NCBI GenBank assembly: GCA_025093555.1 | Contig: JAIWNF010000044.1 | Coordinates: 410,501 to 474,500, forward strand | Length of the DNA: 64,000 nt | Direction of reading: 5' to 3' | Origin: Circinella umbellata | Lineage: Eukaryota; Mucoromycota; Mucoromycetes; Mucorales; Lichtheimiaceae | In this document: positions 45,426 to 56,224 of the stretch, one piece after another | Layout: each line of letters opens with the position of its first letter | How positions within the stretch are numbered: the first letter of the stretch is position 1 | Translations under genes and position numbers: made by a program | The notes under the pieces: generated by a model | Databases searched by the model: none | Told to the model about the DNA's origin: nothing | The model's input: only the letters and a program-made list of their open reading frames with translations

Positions 45426-46962
45426 TTAACGATTGGATGGGGGAGCTCTTGCTTTTCCCTTTTTAGGTCGATGTGATTGGGTGGTGGAGGTGGATGAGGT
45501 GGATGATGATGGTGATGGTGCGGGACGAGTGGCAGGAATCATGGAGGGGTGGCGGTTGTCTTGATACAAATCATCTTGTTGTGGTGGTGGTAGTGGTCGG
45601 CGTGAGGAAGGAGAGGAGGAGGAGGCAACAGCACGCAGAGAGGAAGGAACGGAAAAGACGACCGGATCCGGGTGCGAAACAGTCGAGCTATAAGCATGAT
45701 ACAGTAATATTAATATATTAGTGGTCCATCACATAATACTCTACACTATTCTTATAATCCATTTTCAACTCACCTTGCGCCAGCGGCCTGACTGTGCCCG
45801 TCAATGGAGTGATCCCTATACAATAATTAAATCACTTGTCAGTAAATATAAATCAAAATGTAAAAGTGTATGATACTACAATGAAAACTAGCTTATAAAA
45901 GGAAGAATTCTTGTTTTGGTAAATAATAAACAGGATTTTTGGGTGTAAAAAGTTCGTGTACTTACAATGACATGGCATCAGTCGACCGTTGGGGCAAGCT
46001 TTATCTGCTGCGCATCATGTTCAAATCCATAATCCTAGTATTTTTTTATTAGAATAATGAACAATCTATATGAAATACATAATATTGAACAATATGATAT
46101 AACGATATATGATACGTACGATGCTTCTCGTCTGTCTTTGTCGTTTCTTCTTTTCCTAAAAATAACATATGAAACCAGTTAGTTAGTACTCAGTTGAAGT
46201 TCGATTGCTTTATATTCATTTGCATCATTTTTGTTTGTAACTTTTAACCCACGTCTCACTGTCAAATGGCACCTTCAAGTAATACTTGGCAATCCAGTTA
46301 TCCTCGGCGTTCTTGACGGGCATTCCATCTCGGTTTTCCTCGACGAAGGAATAGAACTGTCCGAGGATGTTCTGGAACGCCTTGCAATGCGTAAGGATGC
46401 TCTAACCCTTTTTCCTCTGGTCCAAGCAGTCATACGCGTTCATCATAGAATTAGCGACCCTGGTGGCGGAGTCCCTGCAGACGTTATGCGCGAAGACCGC
46501 CTTTTCGGAATCCAACGAACAGACGGGACCATAGAACATGTTATAAACATGTTCTCGGGCGACCTTTTTGCCATGCTCCCGTTGTTCTTCAGTTGTTGGC
46601 TTAGGAACAATTCCAGCAACAGGAAGTACGTATGGTACGGGGTGGCGATACCGTTCTTGGAGAGGGGAAGGAGGTTGTTGTTGTTGGGGAGGAGAAGAAG
46701 GTTGCTGTTAAAGAGGCGAGGGTTGCTGCTGTTGTTGTTGAAGGAGGCCGAGAATTTGCTCCTGGTTGTACAGCATTTGACGAAGCATTGCCTCAATGCC
46801 GCCAACATGTTGCTCCAGGTGATTAATATAGTTTTCTCCGTTTCGTTGGGAATCACCAATCGCCAAAACTTGCAAATAGATGTCCTCATTAGTTATGGGG
46901 ACCGGTTGTTGTTGCGTTTGTTGTTGTTGTTGTTGTTGCATTTGTTGTTGTTGCTGATTCAT
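45426..46962 (-). pseudogene. Unrecognised Gln-rich multi-exon gene with three in-frame stops
   Basis: Starts at ATG 46962 with a Gln-rich N-terminus. Exon 1 continues to about 46231 (YINHLEQHVGGIEAMLRQML, VYNMFYGPVCSLDSEKAVF, NAEDNWIAKYYLKVPFD). Short exons follow near 46155-46121 (KRRNDKDRREAS), 46035-45968 and 45815-45775 (DHSIDGHSQAAGA). The last exon, 45687-45426, is Ser/Pro-rich and ends KKGKARAPPSNR. Frames are conserved across all junctions. TAA at ~46706, TAG at ~46406 and TAA at ~46005 interrupt it. Heptads follow the Gln tract, so oligomerisation is plausible. Basic segments could bind nucleic acid. Family not recognised. Confidence 0.5.
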
Positions 46963-47416
46963 TTTTCCTGATGTCAAACGATAATAGTGAAAATAAAAAA
47001 ACCACATAACTTCTAAAATAAAAAATGTCACACAAACCGCAGTCCACACTCAGAGATAGCAGTCAAGGCCGCAGCAAAAAGAAATAGCATGAGACTCTAA
47101 GCACAGAACAATGACACCATTATACATGCCGCCGTATCAAAGTAACATGGAGAAAGAAAGAGAGAATACCCGAGGATGGCAATATAGATCATGATCGAAC
47201 AAAAACATAGAAACCGCAGCATATAAAAAAAAGTATAAATATGAAAAGCATGTTCAGAAATTATTAATCTCCATAATTTTTTTTTTACAATGCCCAAGTC
47301 TACCTTTATTTAGTGCAAAAAATGCTTCCAAGCTGTTGAAAAGACCAAGTATAGAAAACATTACGCTTTGTGTGGTATGACCTAAATTGCTATCTTGCAA
47401 AAATATTACATGCATT
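46963..47416. other. Spacer, nothing recognised
   Basis: Upstream of the Gln-rich pseudogene; AT-rich short frames only. Confidence 0.4.
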
Positions 47417-48186
47417 ATAAAAATAGGGTAGTGCTACCTGTGCGATTTTTTTTTCTTAGCGGTGCGATTTTTTTCTCGCGGGTGTTTAATTGTAGTGGTA
47501 CAGCGCAAACAGCCATAGCCAATCCTCTAGTGATATTACCAGTACGACTTCTCTTACTAAACGTACTTCATTAAGAAACTTTTTTAAAAAAATTACAAGT
47601 GCTTATCCGTGCGATTTTTTTTTCTGAGCGTAGAATATGAGAAAAAGCTGTGCGATTTTTTTTACTTCTAAATGCCATAGCTGACAGTTTATTTGATAAT
47701 GTAAAACTAGTCTACTAAAATATAATATAAAGGTATGTCGATTATGACTAGTTATTAGCACCAACTTGCTCGCATATTATACACAAAAAACAGATAATGC
47801 ACTTGGATTATTTGATTAAAAACGGCTTTATTGGTAGTGCGGTGCGATTTTTTATTTTTTCAAAAAAAATTACAAGTGCTTATCCGTGCGATTTTTTTTG
47901 TCTGGGCGTAAAATATGAGAAAAAGCTGTGCGATTTTTTTTTACTTCTAAATGTCATAGCTAACAGTTTATTTGATAATGTAAAAGTAGTCTACCAAAAT
48001 ATATAATATAAAAGCTTATTGATTATTACTGGCCATTAGCACCAACTTGCTCGCATATTATACACAAAAAACAGATAATGCACTTGGATTATGTGATTAA
48101 AAACGGCTATATTGGTAGTACAGTGCGATTTTTTATTTTTTTAAAAAAAAATTACAAGTGCTTATCCGTGCGATTTTTTTGTCTGA
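47417..48186 (+). repeat. MULE left TIR with ~280-bp tandem units
   Basis: TTACAAGTGCTTATCCGTGC recurs at 47593, 47870 and 48152, spacing 277 and 282 bp. Each unit contains GTGCGATTTTTTTT two or three times, plus ACTTGCTCGCATATTATACA. The repeated GTGCGA+T-run is a good candidate for transposase binding sites. Confidence 0.85.
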
Positions 48187-48878
48187 GCGTGAGAAATGAT
48201 ATTCATGATCACGCGAATTTCCCCCAGCACCACCCGTTATATGTTCTATCCAACTGGCCTCTTAATTGGTTACCGGAACGATAAGCTAATGAACAACAAA
48301 ACTTCACAGAATTAAAGCATCTAATCATTTGACATTTCGATAATTGTTTTTTTTATCTTATCAGAGCTAATAACATGATTTCAATATGACAGTAATATAT
48401 TAGTATAGTATTTGGCTTTCTCGGAAAATAGCTACATTATTGTAGCACATTTACGAAATTTATGAAGCAGTGAATTAAAATGTTATCACTTTTATTGAAA
48501 GTATTGCTAATGAGCATATAATATAAAACAATATGTATCAGTTACATTATTAGAGGTAATGATAGATGGATTTGTGAATGATTAGTATAACTTTGGTTTA
48601 TGTAAATAAATTAAAAAGAGCGCCGAAAACCGGCTACAAAATATCTAGCTATTATCTATCGAAATCATACATTGTGCTTATAACCGCGTTCATGCTTGAT
48701 GACTTTCTGATCCGTTATCATACACGATAGAATTATCGTAGCAGGTTTTCTTCCGTAAGTTCCGGATACATCCAAACTATTTATATGGAGCGAAATTTGT
48801 AGCATATTATCATACTTTGTATTTTTTTCATTATATTAAACATATAGTTCAATTTATTATCTGTATATCATCATTCAA
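48187..48878. other. MULE subterminal region and probable promoter
   Basis: Non-coding AT-rich stretch between the left TIR and the start codon of the composite gene. Confidence 0.45.
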
Positions 48879-51800
48879 ATGAGCGAACTTATTGGTACAA
48901 GATATCCAACCCGTGATGAACTCAAGGCATCTGTTCAATCATACGCAAGAAAGAATGGCTTTGCAGTCAAACAAAGTGTCAATGGACAAGGTGTTGGTAT
49001 TCTGTTCAAGTGCTCCTGTGAAGGTAATGGTAACGAGGATAAGCTTGGAGAGGATCGAAAACGCATGAAGAATAGCCAGAGAAGTGGCTGTAAATGGAAG
49101 CTCACAGCTTCCTTACCCAAGAAGGCCAAAGAAGGTGAAGAGGATCGGTTGTGGGAGGTTCGAGTCCTACGACTTCATTCTGGTCATAAATTTGACACCA
49201 AGAATCAGGGTACACCAGAGAGCATATCAGATGAAAACAACAACATGGTACATCATAACCATGTATTAATCAAAAACAATGACTCAGCTTTATGCAAGGT
49301 TTATAGCCAATATCGAAAGCGTTCAGATACCGTTATCAACACTCTGTCATCATTAAATCGGAATGTCCCTGCACAAGATATTATCAATACAATCGCCCAT
49401 ACACACAATGGATTTGTCATGACGCCCAAAGATGTTTATAACTTCTATCAAATGACTGCTAGCACACCAGGTGCTTCCACCGAATTTCGCCCCTTATTGG
49501 AGTTTTTGCAAGGAGAAGGCTATATTGTTCACTATGAGGTGACAAGACCAGGAAATACTCTCAAGGCTCTATTTGTTATTCATCCCGATTCTATAATGCT
49601 TGCTAGACGTTTTTCAGAAGTAACGCTCATAGATTCAACATACAAGGTTAATTTTCATAACATGCCTCTTGTTCACATTGTTGGTGTCTGTAATCTTGGA
49701 AGTCGTCAGCTTCGTACATTTCTTATTGCATGCTGTGTAATGGTGGATGAAAAAGAGTCTTCCTACACCTGGATGGCCAAAAAATTACATGATATTGTAT
49801 GGCCTACATCATCTATTTTTTCACCCCCTGCACTTTTTGTTACCGACCAAGATCCTCAACTTATCAAGAGCATCCACAGTGAATTTCCATCAAGTGATAC
49901 TATTCGGTGCGCCTGGCATGTTCAAAAGAATTTCTCTGACAGGTATAATGGCAAGTTTACTCCAAAGAAGCGGGGACAGAAATACTCAGACCAAGATAAA
50001 ATGGATCATATTGTCAGCAAGCTACTATGGTGTAGAACAGAAAAAGAGTTTGACAACGCTGTTGAGTGCTATTATAAACATATTCCCAAGTCTTCAATTG
50101 AAGCAGAGCTAAAGAGTTATATGGCTAGGTAATTTTTAAAACTCTATGCTTATATTTGATTATCTTTACCATTACTACTGGCACTATTGCATTTTATTAC
50201 TGTAATAACCGTTATAAAATAATTATTCTTGTGTAATAGCTGTTTAGAAAATAAGCACGTCTGGGGTGGTTATTGGTGTGAACAGTTTCCTCATTTTCAA
50301 TCCCGAACAACATCAAGGGTCGAATCATACCATAAAAGCTTAAAAGCACGGATAACTAAGTATGGTTCTTTGTTACATTTATTTCAAAAGATAAACGAGA
50401 AGCGTAATTGGATGGTATGTTTGTTCTATCTACATTTCTTTTTATAAAACATACACCAATATAATTATAATTTTATACAAGGACTAACATACATACTGTA
50501 TTATAATATATAGATGGAGGATGAAGACGGTGAGCTTTATTTAGAGCTACTGAAGCAACCCGTGATCATATCAAGTGATGCAGCAAAATACTTCGAGAAC
50601 CTCCTTGGACGCGTTTCTCACTATGCTTTATATATCCTACGTAATGAATATATCAATATCGATGAAGATAACCACAATGACAATTGCTGCTGTATTGTAA
50701 AGCAAAACCTTCGACTTCCATGTCGCCATGCAATGATTAAAAGTGATATGCCAATTTTATTAGAAAGTGTGTATTCTTTCTGGCATATATATGAAGAAGG
50801 CAAGTATTTCGAGAAATATCATTATGTATATAAACTATCAGGTGTAATTTATAACGAGATCACTATTATGAACATACTAACATATACTTTTAATATCTAT
50901 AGAAGCCGATGTTAGCATAAAAATTATCAGCAAAGAATTATCATCAAGGGCAACTACTATACTTTATACATTGCAAGAAAGATTTATACAGATCTACGAT
51001 CACCAGCGCCTAAACTTGTTAATGGATAATATTGAGAATATCTTGGCTAATGATGACGATATTTCTACTGACATCAATAAAATTCAAATACCAAGAAAAA
51101 TCAAAGCAAAAGGTCGTCCAAAAAAGCGAATCGCTAAACCAAGAAAAACAATCATCGATAAAATTAATTACGCAGACTTGAAACGTAAACGTGAAATTGG
51201 AAAAGAACGCTCATCAGATATTGGTACCACTATTAACCACCACCCAAAAAAGAAGTAAGAATATATTTCATTTTTTCAATGGATTCTTATACTGTAACTT
51301 TCTATACTTTGTTATATAATAATACTGTTATACTTCTTAGACAACATATAGTGAAATCAGAGGAAAGCAACATACCAATTCCAAATATTCCCAAACGTCG
51401 TATCAAAAACGTGAGATGTAGTACTAATCAAGAAGACACACTCCATATATTACATGCCAAAGGTAATTCATAATTTGTTAATTCTAGATATCTTTTCTTA
51501 TGTAGTGTAAGTAAAAAATTAACAAACGTTAAAAAATAGTACCGTACGAACTGTATCTCGAGCCAAACAACACTAATTCTTGCTTTATCGATGCACCAAT
51601 GGAAATGCTTTGGAGTTCAATACTGCCGTATATAAATCTCGACTCTGTTTCATTACTACACACACCTTACAATGTGGTTGATATTATGCTCCGTCTTTCC
51701 TCGCACTATCATCAAAAGAATACCATAACTGGCAGATCAATGGCTACCAGTATTGCACGCCGCTTTGCTTGGGGTCTTTCTGAATTTTCAGATCGACAAA

Positions 51801-53436
51801 TGAACAGTGCTCATTATTTCGTAAAACAACATTTACTGTCAAAGGCTTCATTGACATTTAAACAGAACTTTTTTCCGACATACACTTGTTCTACGATCTG
51901 TTCCTCTTGTGGTTTCAAATCAACACGAGAAAATCTGCTATTGGATATTGATACGGTTACTAGCGAGATAACTACAGAAGATCCTATTGAATTTACAGAC
52001 CAGTTTTATGCTCATCATGTACTGAATCCATGACAAGCAAAATGTAATTCGAAGGACTGTGCCCATAGAGATGCTACCCAAGAAAACATCATCACAAAAT
52101 ATTCTCCATTTTTGTTGATTGGGGCTGCCATGTGGAAAGATCCGCGATCAGATATACTTCAGTACACGCATTTTCCTTATGAGATGAAGTTCCATGATGC
52201 ACATTATATACTACATTCAAAAGTACACAGTGTGACTGATGATGGATTTCATTTTTATACAGTTGCAACTGTTGAACATCATAGTGAGCGATTCCTGGCT
52301 CGCTTTGACAATCTTAAACCCAATGTTGAAATTATAACGAATCGAGTATCACGAACCTCACAAGAAGTACTTTGCCAACCAGACAAAACTACTTTTGTAT
52401 GCTACAAGCTATCAACAATCAACAAGATACGGCCAACACTAATGGATACATTAGAAATCAATGAATCAGATGCCGTGTTGAGCCCTCGGTTGATTGGCGG
52501 TCGTGATGGTTCTTGTAAGTGTAATTTTTTTCACAGTAAAATATTTTATCTACCTATTACTAAAAGTTCTAATACTGTATGTGTTGTATATAGTGAGCCA
52601 GTGCTACTTCTGTAGAAAAAGTTACCGACACCGTTCACAAAAGTAATACAAGACCTTCATTCTAAGTACTCTATAACCGAAAGAATGCAGAAGTATTGCC
52701 AGAAGTACTTACTTAGACGAGGACCAATGAGCATGAAGCAGCGAGAAATCATTAATTTACATGATACACTTGGCTTAAGTAAGCAAGAACGTGATCACTT
52801 CTGCTGGACACATCGGTTTGAATGTGATTACAAGCCAGTAGCATTGGAAGAATCCTATCCTTTGTCAATTGACTTTGGGGAGCTCAATAATCGATAAAAG
52901 ATTTAAAGAACCAACTTGATGGAATTATTGCTGGGACGGAGGACAGCTTCTATTTGAGGCAAGCCATCAGATCAATAGAAAAGCTTGGAAGTAGAAAAGC
53001 TCAGAGCATGGTTCAAATGTTGCAGGAATCGCATGAATTTTCAGTATGTATAATAGTGATAACTTAAATTTTAGTAACAATCAAATAAAACAATTTTAAC
53101 AAAATCAATTTATATTACTTATAGGTTGGATATTATGGGAATCGAGGACAGGTTGCTATTGCAAATGCATTAGTCTCTATGTATTTAAAAAAACTTTCAG
53201 GAAATATTGAAACATATGGTCTAAGACCTATGTCATATATCCAGCAAGTATTAATTCCAGAAACCGGTGCACGGTTAATCCGTGAAGATATAAAAGACGC
53301 TCGACGAGACAATAAGCTAAATGAATTTGATATGATGCAGGTGGAACATGCAGGGGACCAAAAACTCTTGGAGTATGCACGATTGCGAATGAAGAAAAGT
53401 CGTGTATGGGGCAATAATATGTACCCGGAAACTTAA
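48879..53436 (+). pseudogene. MULE transposase fused to USP-like protease and RTC4-like domain
   Basis: Exons 48879-50128, 50240-50414, 50514-50799, 50903-51254, 51341-51462, 51540-52514, 52594-53043 and 53125-53436 join in phase to ~1307 residues once two single-base deletions are allowed. Order: FAR1-like Cys/His region (~10-105); MULE core with TLIDSTYKVNF (Asp ~252), FVTDQDPQLIKSI (Asp ~322) and CAWHVQKNF; SWIM finger CCCIVKQNLRLPCRHA (~537-552); AT-hook KGRPKKRIAKPRK (~640); USP-like Cys box NNTNSCFIDAPMEMLW (Cys ~743), Zn-type CSTICSSCG with CNSKDC, and DDGFHFYTV (His ~965); RTC4-like domain from SQCYFC through FCWTHR and VGYYGNRGQ to QQVLIPETGARLIREDI. Lesions: TGA 52031-52033, deletions near 52618 and 52893. 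Intron 3 is GC-AG (AAG then GCAAGT). Confidence 0.8.
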
Positions 53437-53879
53437 TAACAATACTATCATTCGATTCTTTACTTCGTACAATCACCACTTGATCACTATTACTCAATCT
53501 CTTTACATATAGTTTCTTTTACTACGTAAAATCTATTTTCTTTTTCCATATATATATACGTACTTGTCTACTTTTATATTATTATTACATATAATTACTT
53601 TATATTCCTATATTCTTAACTTTATTTTCTTTTTCTTTCTACCATCCATACTTATATTTCCTTTTTACATAATACTTTTTACATAGCTTAAATATATCTT
53701 AATGAAATAAAATAACAAATAGATATAATCAGCTTACTGTTCTATATAGTTTTGGCTTTGAACGTTACACCATGAGAGATATGAAAGCAACATATTAAGC
53801 TATCAGAAGAAAAATCGCACAAATAATGAGTTATGCTAATAGGAAATCTGTGTAGTTGTGAAAACCATTTCTACAATAA
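53437..53879. other. MULE 3' flank of the composite gene
   Basis: AT/pyrimidine-rich 3' region up to the right TIR. Nothing else seen. Confidence 0.45.
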
Positions 53880-54596
53880 TAAAAAATCGCACCGCACTAC
53901 AATAAAGCCGTTTTTAATCAAATAATCCAAGTGCATTATCTGTTTTTTGTGTATAATATGCGAGCAAGTTGGTGCTAATGCCAGTAATAATCAATAAGCT
54001 TTTATATTATATATTTTGGTAGACTACTTTTACATTATCAAATAAACTGTTAGCTATGGCATTTAGAAGTAAAAAAAATCGCACAGCTTTTTCTCATATT
54101 TTACGCCCAGACAAAAAAAATCGCACGGATAAGCACTTGTAATTTTTTTTGAAAAAATAAAAAATCGCACCGCACTACCAATAAAGCCGTTTTTAATCAA
54201 ATAATCCAAGTGCATTATCTGTTTTTTGTGTATAATATGCGAGCAAGTTGGTGCTAATGGCCAGTAATAATCAATAAGCTTTTATATTATATATTTTGGT
54301 AGACTACTTTTACATTATCAAATAAACTGTTAGCTATGGCATTTAGAAGTAAAAAAAATCGCACAGCTTTTTCTCATATTCTATGCTCAGAAAAAAAAAT
54401 CGCACGGATAAGCACTTGTAATTTTTTTAAAAAAGTTTCTTAATGAAGTACGTTTAGTAAGAGAAGTCGTACTGGTAATATCACTAGAGGATTGGCTATG
54501 GCTGTTTGCGCTGTACCACTACAATTTAAAACCCGCGAGAAAAAAATCGCACCGCTAAGAAAAAAAAATCGCACAGGTAGCACTACCCTATTTTTA
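53880..54596 (-). repeat. MULE right TIR with ~280-bp tandem units
   Basis: Reverse complement of the left TIR. The repeated word, here GCACGGATAAGCACTTGTAA, occurs near 54122 and 54402, about 280 bp apart, and AAAAAATCGCAC is found many times. The outer ~100 bp (GAAGTCGTACTGGTAATATC and onward) also match the left end inverted. Confidence 0.85.
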
Positions 54597-56010
54597 TGTT
54601 TTATAAGTAGCCTCGTTGAAAAAAAAATGCACATTACAACTTTGAATTTATTGGATCATTGGATAGTCAGGTTGGATGAAAATATATCCATTTGCATCTA
54701 AACTTTCGGATGGGATAATAATGCCAAATCCACATCAGCAGAACCCTATATTCTGTTGGATAAAAATGAATATCACCGCAACAATATATAATACTTTAAT
54801 ATACGTGAGTATTTTCTTGAGATAAACTGGACAGCCTCAAATATATGGTACTACTTATAATATTAACGGGAGAATATAGATATATATTACGAAGTATTTG
54901 TTCAGAAGGGATTGAGTATATTATTGGATGGGACATATATCTAGTATACTGATCAAGGATTTTGAGCTAACATGATTATGAGGGATGGAAACCATCCTCG
55001 TATCGATAACAACATACTCGAGAACGTCCAATAAGATAGAGTCGATTATCCAAAAGAATTTATGTATATACTTTATTGATGATAATAATAATAATATACC
55101 AGCCATAACAACAACACTACTTGGAATCCAATTCATAGTTGTAATACCTGATTCACTCTTGAACCTTTCATCCGTGTGTTTCTTTGATAATATGTGCTGT
55201 TCTATTAATAATATTAGGCGTAGAAAACATATTATAGCTTGCTGCAAAAGTAAAGTCTTTTTTTAACTTTTAAAAATAGCTTTGTTTGGTTAGTTGGAAA
55301 ACAGGTATAATATTATATTGTTGTTTGCTTGTTCTTTGGTTCTATTTTTTGTAACACTGTTTTTAGGATAGTATAGATTGACGTTCATTATGTTCAATAT
55401 TGATGTACGATTGTCAACTACATTGTTAACTGAAATGGTCGTTATATAGATTGCAAAAGTAAAGCGTGTCTTGAAAGTTTCAGCAACTGTTAGTTTTATA
55501 TCTTTTTGTATACTTTTTTTTTGTTCTAACCATGACAGTTCCATTCCTTCAGGCACATAAATCATTTTGAATAGAATGCTTTCCTTTTCTTATATTGCCA
55601 GCGTCCCTCTCTTCCATGTTGAATATATTCATGTTTCTTGAACACAATTACCGTTTTGTTTCCTCCAACCTTATACTACTTAACTCTATTTGGTGCTTCC
55701 GTTTTTTTTCCTCTTTCACAAGACAAACATATCTCACAAAAAAAAAGACATATAATTCAGATCTTATTATAGTTTCTACAATTGTTAGATTGAAATAAAT
55801 GTTTGTGTTTTTTTATCAAAAAAGGAAAGAATAAGGTGGGAAAAGAAAAAAAACTGACCCATTTGTATTTTTTTTGCTGTGGCTAAATAACCCCTTTCAG
55901 CTATGCATGATTATTTTACTGCTCAATATAAATGCTTTTCTTTTATATGGATCATTGCTATATGTTGTAGAGACTATATATAATGAAGATTATATATAAA
56001 AATAAAAATA
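54597..56010. other. AT-rich spacer, nothing recognised
   Basis: Short AT-driven frames on both strands only. Confidence 0.4.
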
Positions 56011-56186
56011 CAGTTGAACCCCGTTTTTTGCACAGGTGGGATTTGGCTTGAAAGTAGTGCAAAAACCGTGGGTGTGCAAAAAGTGGGGTCGAAAACATAG
56101 TAAAATTATAGTGGGATTTATGCTGAGAGGCGTGCAAAAAGTAGGGGTGTGCAAAAACCGGGAGTGCAAAAAACGGGGTTCAACTG
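56011..56186. mobile_element. 176-bp pogo-like MITE
   Basis: Perfect inverted ends CAGTTGAACCCCGTTTTTTG / CAAAAAACGGGGTTCAACTG, flanked by TA on both sides (56009-56010 and 56187-56188). The interior repeats the word GTGCAAAAA several times in both orientations. CAGT-type ends and TA duplications indicate the pogo/Tigger group; no coding capacity. Confidence 0.88.
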
Positions 56187-56224
56187 TATTATAAGTGATG
56201 ATAATTAAATATCACATCAGTGAA

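Follow-up and report, generated by a model that had tools for sequence, protein, structure and literature searches.

Why should a single fungal gene join a DNA transposase to a ubiquitin-protease-like domain and to an RTC4 domain? The question is raised by positions 48879-53436 of a 64 kb stretch of contig C150 of Circinella umbellata (hereafter the window), where an earlier note, made from the letters alone, had proposed such a fusion; the genome comprises 50.8 Mb in 210 contigs, and all comparisons between copies were made within it. We consider it fairly probable that these positions belong to a decayed member of a family of Mutator-like elements (MULEs) that was recently mobile and whose single gene encodes a transposase, a USP-type protease and an RTC4 domain, the protease serving as a cis-acting deubiquitinase and RTC4 having been captured from the host.

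Structure of the fusion gene

The gene occupies eight exons:

48879..50128, plus strand: exon 1, FAR1-like N-terminus and MULE DDE domain (MULE match approximately 49620-49931)
50240..50414, plus strand: exon 2, TSRVES motif, read from the sequence
50514..50799, plus strand: exon 3, SWIM-like CCC..CRH motif seen by eye; GC donor after it
50903..51254, plus strand: exon 4, linker with AT-hook core GRPKK (51112-51126), seen by eye
51341..51462, plus strand: exon 5, basic linker
51540..52514, plus strand: exon 6, USP-like protease; Cys 51581-51583, His 52250-52252, Asp 52307-52309; in-frame TGA at 52031-52033 in the window copy
52594..53043, plus strand: exon 7, N-terminal part of RTC4 (CYFC, FCWTHR); two frame breaks in the window copy
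53125..53436, plus strand: exon 8, C-terminal part of RTC4; stop at 53434-53436

Exon borders and splice sites bear out the coordinates and the eight exons that the earlier note had proposed, and the strings it had pointed to (the Cys box, the GFHFYT box, CYFC, FCWTHR, VGYYGNRG and VLIPETGARLIREDI) are all present. The seven introns (77-111 nt) comprise six of GT-AG and one of GC-AG type. The description of the N-terminal half as a FAR1/MULE/SWIM/AT-hook transposase stands for the MULE DDE domain, which Pfam MULE (PF10551) matches in exon 1 at 6.3e-19 (68.7 bits, cut-off 27.6), and is less secure for the remainder: the FAR1 match in exon 1 (2.9e-4) falls under its cut-off, and the SWIM zinc finger (a CxC..CxH pattern in exon 3) and the AT-hook core of exon 4 are recognized by eye, the Pfam scan giving no match for either. 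We take the TSRVES motif of exon 2 to be the likely site of the third catalytic acidic residue.

The open frames are longer than chance would give: exon 1 is open over 416 codons, against a maximum of 150 among 500 shuffles, and exon 6, cut by its own stop, over 163 (shuffle maximum 157). Exons 1-6 of the window copy join in one frame of 892 codons up to the TGA at 52031-52033; because of this stop and the frame breaks in exon 7, which is read across frames, the proposal that all eight exons keep one phase fails for the window copy. It holds for a sibling on contig C197, where the same eight exons give 1307 codons with a single terminal stop. At least one copy thus reads through transposase, USP-like domain and RTC4 in a single open frame, and the three parts are not always separate genes.

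The protease and RTC4 domains

The predicted structure of a sibling exon has a USP fold, and the putative triad C15, H238 and D257, whose residues are named from the order of the boxes and not from model coordinates, is present in all 13 rows covering these positions and conserved across approximately six families. Six relatives of the exon exceed the Pfam UCH cut-off. These results support a middle domain with a predicted USP fold and a kept Cys-His-Asp triad, a peptidase fold of the kind that the earlier note had read from the boxes. The RTC4-like domain was likewise correctly named: Pfam RTC4 (PF14474) matches the C197 protein at 7.1e-17 (62.1 bits, positions 2-119 of 121) and exon 8 of the window at 3.7e-12 (46.9 bits, cut-off 23.7).

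USP-like domains also end a second, multi-copy class of proteins, L045 (840 codons) and L046 (at least 832), which have no RTC4; USP stretches related to these occur on C190, C156, C167, C158 and C169. Motifs of a D..D..C.xH..E-like kind can be picked out by eye in their N-terminal halves. Kinship of this class with MULEs found no support: hhalign against the MULE rows gave E 0.034 at probability 1.5, Pfam gave no MULE match, and no transposase model of Pfam matched the N-terminal half.

Copies in the genome

Searching the genome with exon 1 gave 53 matches, five of them at approximately 100% including the window, and the USP exon gave seven full-length copies at 91-100%, again including the window. 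Over about 7.0 kb, the window element shows 99.1-99.3% identity to those on C147, C167 and C197. Frame status was read with the window exon borders carried over, and breaks in the assembly may be biological or sequencing errors: C189 is open for 1127 codons up to the contig end, C147 is broken from exon 1 onward, both C167 and C143 are broken from exon 7, and C168 has stops within the USP exon. A search for intact copies, which the earlier note had suggested for Mucoromycota genomes, yielded one fully open copy, C197, in the same genome.

Shorter members of the family share its terminal inverted repeat (TIR) ends, those on C136 and C189 being 96-97% alike over the first 160 bp, and short elements on these contigs (L034 on C136 and L036 on C189, 2.7 and 3.2 kb) retain parts of a USP exon that has diverged (43-54% identity). 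The copies on C143 (L020 8727-9518) and C168 (L023 59-860) have a common 40-bp outer flank, and their 3' ends are 92-93% like the window element. C143 has the look of a chimera, part young copy and part old.

Sister elements carry an OTU-like protease in the same slot

In sister MULEs, with transposases 36-41% identical, the corresponding position is taken by a protease that shows a DG.CG[FWY]R box and, further on, a His box. These MULEs comprise a MULE-OTU-RTC4 family and MULE-OTU loci without RTC4 match (C64, C209 and others), all in the same genome (L026-L031, L033). A profile of the sister protease has OTUD5 as its first match (4e-8), followed by chains titled RNA-dependent RNA polymerase, presumably viral OTUs, and by OTUD1; the invariance of D17, C20 and H145 (9 of 9 rows) agrees with this relation to solved OTUs. 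Pfam OTU had no match in the seven sister protease exons scanned, and the AlphaFold2 model of the OTU exon was poor (predicted local distance difference test, pLDDT, 41.6) and was not used. The presence of these OTU-RTC4 sisters means that the MULE-USP-RTC4 fusion is not an isolated oddity, which is firmer ground than the earlier note had.

When the 53 rows are collapsed by hand to 45 transposase loci, seven have USP, 21 OTU, 17 neither and none both, and because one query per protease fold was used, the 'neither' loci may hide diverged or lost proteases. The family search places RTC4 at 5 of the 7 USP loci and at 7 of the 21 OTU loci; at the remaining two USP loci, C143 and C189, tblastn picks up RTC4 DNA that is broken or cut short. 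In C64 and C209, the 2.0 and 1.6 kb inspected past the OTU gave no RTC4 (best chance match E 0.21). In the USP rows the protease lies 1439-1446 nt from the matched transposase stretch, if two rows that are split or decayed (1729, 3823) are set aside; in the OTU rows the distance is 1404-1777 nt. An AT-hook core (GRPKK or GRPPKK) lies upstream of both protease kinds, and the USP and OTU families have the same phases for introns 1 (phase 2), 6 (phase 1) and 7 (phase 0). A transposase tree of 17 rows contains four deep lineages whose branching order is without resolution, long branches meeting there. Two scans of viral contigs gave no relatives. The occurrence of OTU in the slot of the sisters suggests that ubiquitin removal may itself be useful to the element.

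Probable source of the RTC4 domain

A stand-alone RTC4 gene on C142 (L032 3650-5326; RTC4 match 1.5e-15) has no MULE, USP or OTU match within its 7.5 kb, and its neighbors, which we take to be a Mio-like WD protein and COQ4, resemble host genes. It is probably a host relative of the captured exons. Its intron right before CxxC is in phase 1 in all candidates and that before GYYG in phase 0 for the best donor, GTAAGT, both in agreement with C197 and with the OTU family, for which phases were chosen among candidates by donor consensus. These introns, common to the elements and the C142 gene, indicate a capture of host DNA, introns included. Among the RTC4 matches with neither protease upstream, the one inspected (C134) is a 3' remnant of the OTU family.

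In the available portion of PMC6162548, yeast Rtc4 is placed in cytosol and nucleus, its function is called unclear, and a genetic link to telomeres is given. A rust study counts 45 RTC4 proteins in Puccinia novopanici and 15 in another species, which the excerpted text reads as host proteins (PMC9370660). Carriage by transposons offers a simple possible reason for large fungal RTC4 families that have been read as host adaptations.

Selection on the fused domains

Ratios of nonsynonymous to synonymous substitution rates (dN/dS) were estimated from small counts, without a statistical test. In the OTU family, C29 vs C27 gives 0.42 for transposase, 0.36 for OTU, and 0.25 and 0.10 for RTC4, and C29 vs C203 gives 0.21 for transposase, the rest being saturated. 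In the USP family, C197 vs the decayed C168 gives 0.49 for transposase, 0.50 for USP and 0.78 for RTC4 exon 7 (exon 8 undefined); C197 vs L044 gives 0.86 for USP and 0.41 and 0.83 for RTC4; C197 vs C58 gives 0.18 for transposase and 0.53 and 0.57 for RTC4. The OTU family shows the clearer constraint; in the USP family, where decayed partners may inflate the ratios, it is weak.

Weighing the explanations

Several observations weigh against the explanation given at the outset. With all eight exons joined, the window copy has 16 stops in its reading, and as it stands it has no capacity to encode the whole fusion. C197 is the only fully open member of the seven USP copies (C147, C167, C143, C168 and the window copy are broken), and within RTC4 it departs from the window copy at the FCxxH histidine, which the three other aligned RTC4 copies retain, so that 'open' is not equal to 'working'. 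Neither the window pieces nor the C197 protein match Pfam UCH, for which reason we write 'USP-like' and base membership on fold and relatives. Structure comparison of the USP-like exon models gives TM-scores of approximately 0.5, two of five models have pLDDT of 54-55, and the exon profile reaches USPs in the PDB weakly (best 0.026, the next two being unrelated chains at 0.063 and 0.11); a PDB search with the USP of L047 had no match. To these must be added the 17 of 45 transposase loci with neither protease, the USP-exon dN/dS values of 0.50 (C168) and 0.86 (L044), and the intron before the protease exon, which is in phase 1 in the USP family vs phase 2 in the OTU family, a mismatch that leaves a clean exon swap between the families unsupported.

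Some of these points would suit a Pack-MULE-like capture, in which the element took up host fragments as its protease and RTC4 exons and these contribute nothing to transposition: the USP copies are mostly broken, USP-exon dN/dS is not low, 14 of 21 OTU loci lack an RTC4 match, and the introns common to the elements and the stand-alone RTC4 gene are a mark of DNA-level capture. We nevertheless think such passengers quite unlikely, since 28 of the 45 transposase loci have a protease, at much the same distance and in four deep lineages of the 17-row tree, the USP triad is kept across its families, and the OTU family comparison of C29 with C27 is low for OTU (0.36) and for RTC4 (0.10-0.25). That the USP-fold domain is instead a dead or non-ubiquitin scaffold, either a binder of ubiquitin or a ubiquitin-like protein or a SUMO/NEDD8 protease, is unlikely. 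In its favor, fold alone does not tell modifier specificity, and plant and animal Mutator elements carry Ulp1, a SUMO-type protease, according to the excerpted text of PMC2836005. Against it stand the Cys-His-Asp residues, intact in every complete row, and the filling of the same slot in sister elements by OTU, a deubiquitinase class listed in the available part of PMC9741609.

The breaks in exons 6-7 of C167, C143 and the window leave the transposase half open, as would be expected if the transposase gene stopped before exon 6 and a protease-RTC4 gene followed downstream within the same element; C147, broken in exon 1, is the opposite case. Plant MULEs can hold several genes, for example an Ulp1-bearing one (PMC13317346, as excerpted). 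Such an arrangement of separate adjacent genes is nonetheless improbable here, because C197 joins the eight exons in one frame, a promoter and start would find scant room in introns 5 and 6, of 77 and 79 nt, and the OTU families repeat the same order and distance. Mis-assembly of a repeat might account for indel differences among copies, possibly homopolymer errors, and for the chimeric look of C143. A fusion created by the assembly is very improbable all the same, as the transposase-USP order is the same at seven loci on seven contigs and recurs with OTU and RTC4 at seven more.

If, as we prefer, the window holds a decayed member of a MULE family with a transposase-protease-RTC4 gene, the protease would be an active deubiquitinase working in cis, which would deubiquitinate the transposase itself or members of the transposition and repair complex and so let the transposase escape turnover or silencing. 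RTC4, for which capture from a host RTC4 gene, introns included, is the likeliest origin, would be a docking or zinc-binding module for a host partner. USP and OTU have the same chemistry and unrelated folds and fill one slot, from which we conclude that selection probably acts on ubiquitin removal and not on fold. Two unrelated deubiquitinase folds in one slot of related transposases in one genome amount to a natural swap experiment, and exchange or inactivation of the slot makes testable the question of why transposons carry ubiquitin proteases. A bolder proposal, which we advance only tentatively, is that MULEs of this genome have a fixed deubiquitinase slot refilled by unrelated folds (OTU, USP), that two lineages keep a captured host RTC4, and that ubiquitin removal at the site of an RTC4 partner is a required step of the life cycle; the multi-copy RTC4 families of other fungi, such as the 45 counted for Puccinia novopanici in the excerpt of PMC9370660, would then be largely transposon-borne and not host expansions.

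Relation to known systems

Transposons that carry OTU, VTD, Ulp1 or C19 proteases are already known in kind from Helitrons, Ginger1 and Trichomonas. Ginger1 transposases have a C-terminal OTU or Ulp1, Hydra families carrying one or the other, whereas the Ginger1 transposase is of Gypsy-integrase type and not MULE, and neither USP nor RTC4 is mentioned in the available text (PMC2836005). The same excerpt gives a Trichomonas vaginalis protein in which a DNA transposase is joined to a USP-class peptidase C19; it differs in being of transposase_11 type and from a protist, RTC4 again being unmentioned there. Helitrons carry VTD or OTU deubiquitinases, and VTDs react with ubiquitin probes, but these are rolling-circle elements with VTD/OTU instead of USP, and RTC4 is unmentioned in the portion consulted (PMC9741609). 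In Helitrons and herpesviruses OTU and VTD replace each other, from which the authors, in that portion, argue that different deubiquitinase classes meet the same need. The Kaonashi and KIU plant MULEs carry Ulp1, a ubiquitin-like-protein protease of uncertain role; there, however, Ulp1 lies in one of several separate genes of non-TIR MULEs, and the excerpted text does not mention RTC4 (PMC13317346). The RTC4 domain of the element, over the curated cut-off, resembles yeast and fungal Rtc4 (PF14474), which is a host protein without transposase. In the open-licence literature searched, we found no paper joining RTC4 with a transposase and none, by title, on a MULE transposase with OTU or a deubiquitinase; the words OTU, protease and ubiquitin are absent from the MULE and fungal-transposon papers PMC6446971 and PMC12730594.

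Element ends and flanks

The fusion gene is enclosed by inverted repeats (47417-48199 and 53868-54597, total arm span about 780 nt), transposon ends of which the earlier note made no mention:

47426..54588, plus strand: whole MULE element, ends GGGTAGTGC...GCACTACCC, about 7.2 kb; terminal motif at both ends, arms 97% complementary
47426..48199, plus strand: left terminal inverted repeat, tandem modules of about 280 bp with GTGCGATTTTTTT boxes
53868..54588, minus strand: right terminal inverted repeat
47418..47425: left 8-bp flank, TAAAAATA
54589..54596: right 8-bp flank, TATTTTTA, the reverse complement of the left flank and not a direct repeat

The outermost arms (47417-47729 and 54285-54597; 313 nt) are 97% complementary, with further arms inside, and the terminal motif GGGTAGTGC begins at 47426 while its mirror finishes at 54588. 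All 13 GTGCGATTTTTTT boxes in the window fall within the two arms (0.01 expected). The window element thus has the long terminal inverted repeats of a MULE. Target site duplications of MULEs measure 8-11 bp in the excerpted text of PMC6446971, and perfect 8-bp direct repeats flank six of the nine elements with both ends seen; among the other three, C168 has a homopolymer match only, and the window copy and C143 have no direct repeat, so that the duplication is found at the level of the family and is absent in these two copies. Recombination between copies is a possible source of the reverse-complement flanks of the window copy.

The left 8-bp flank in the window (47418-47425) is identical to the target duplication of the C147 copy. 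The element is inserted just upstream of a Gln-rich open frame (window 46400-46970, minus strand), which starts about 460 bases to its left. Elsewhere in the window, at 56007-56190, lies a small inverted-repeat element with 27-nt perfect arms (AATACAGTTGAACCCC...), by its look a mariner-like miniature inverted-repeat transposable element.
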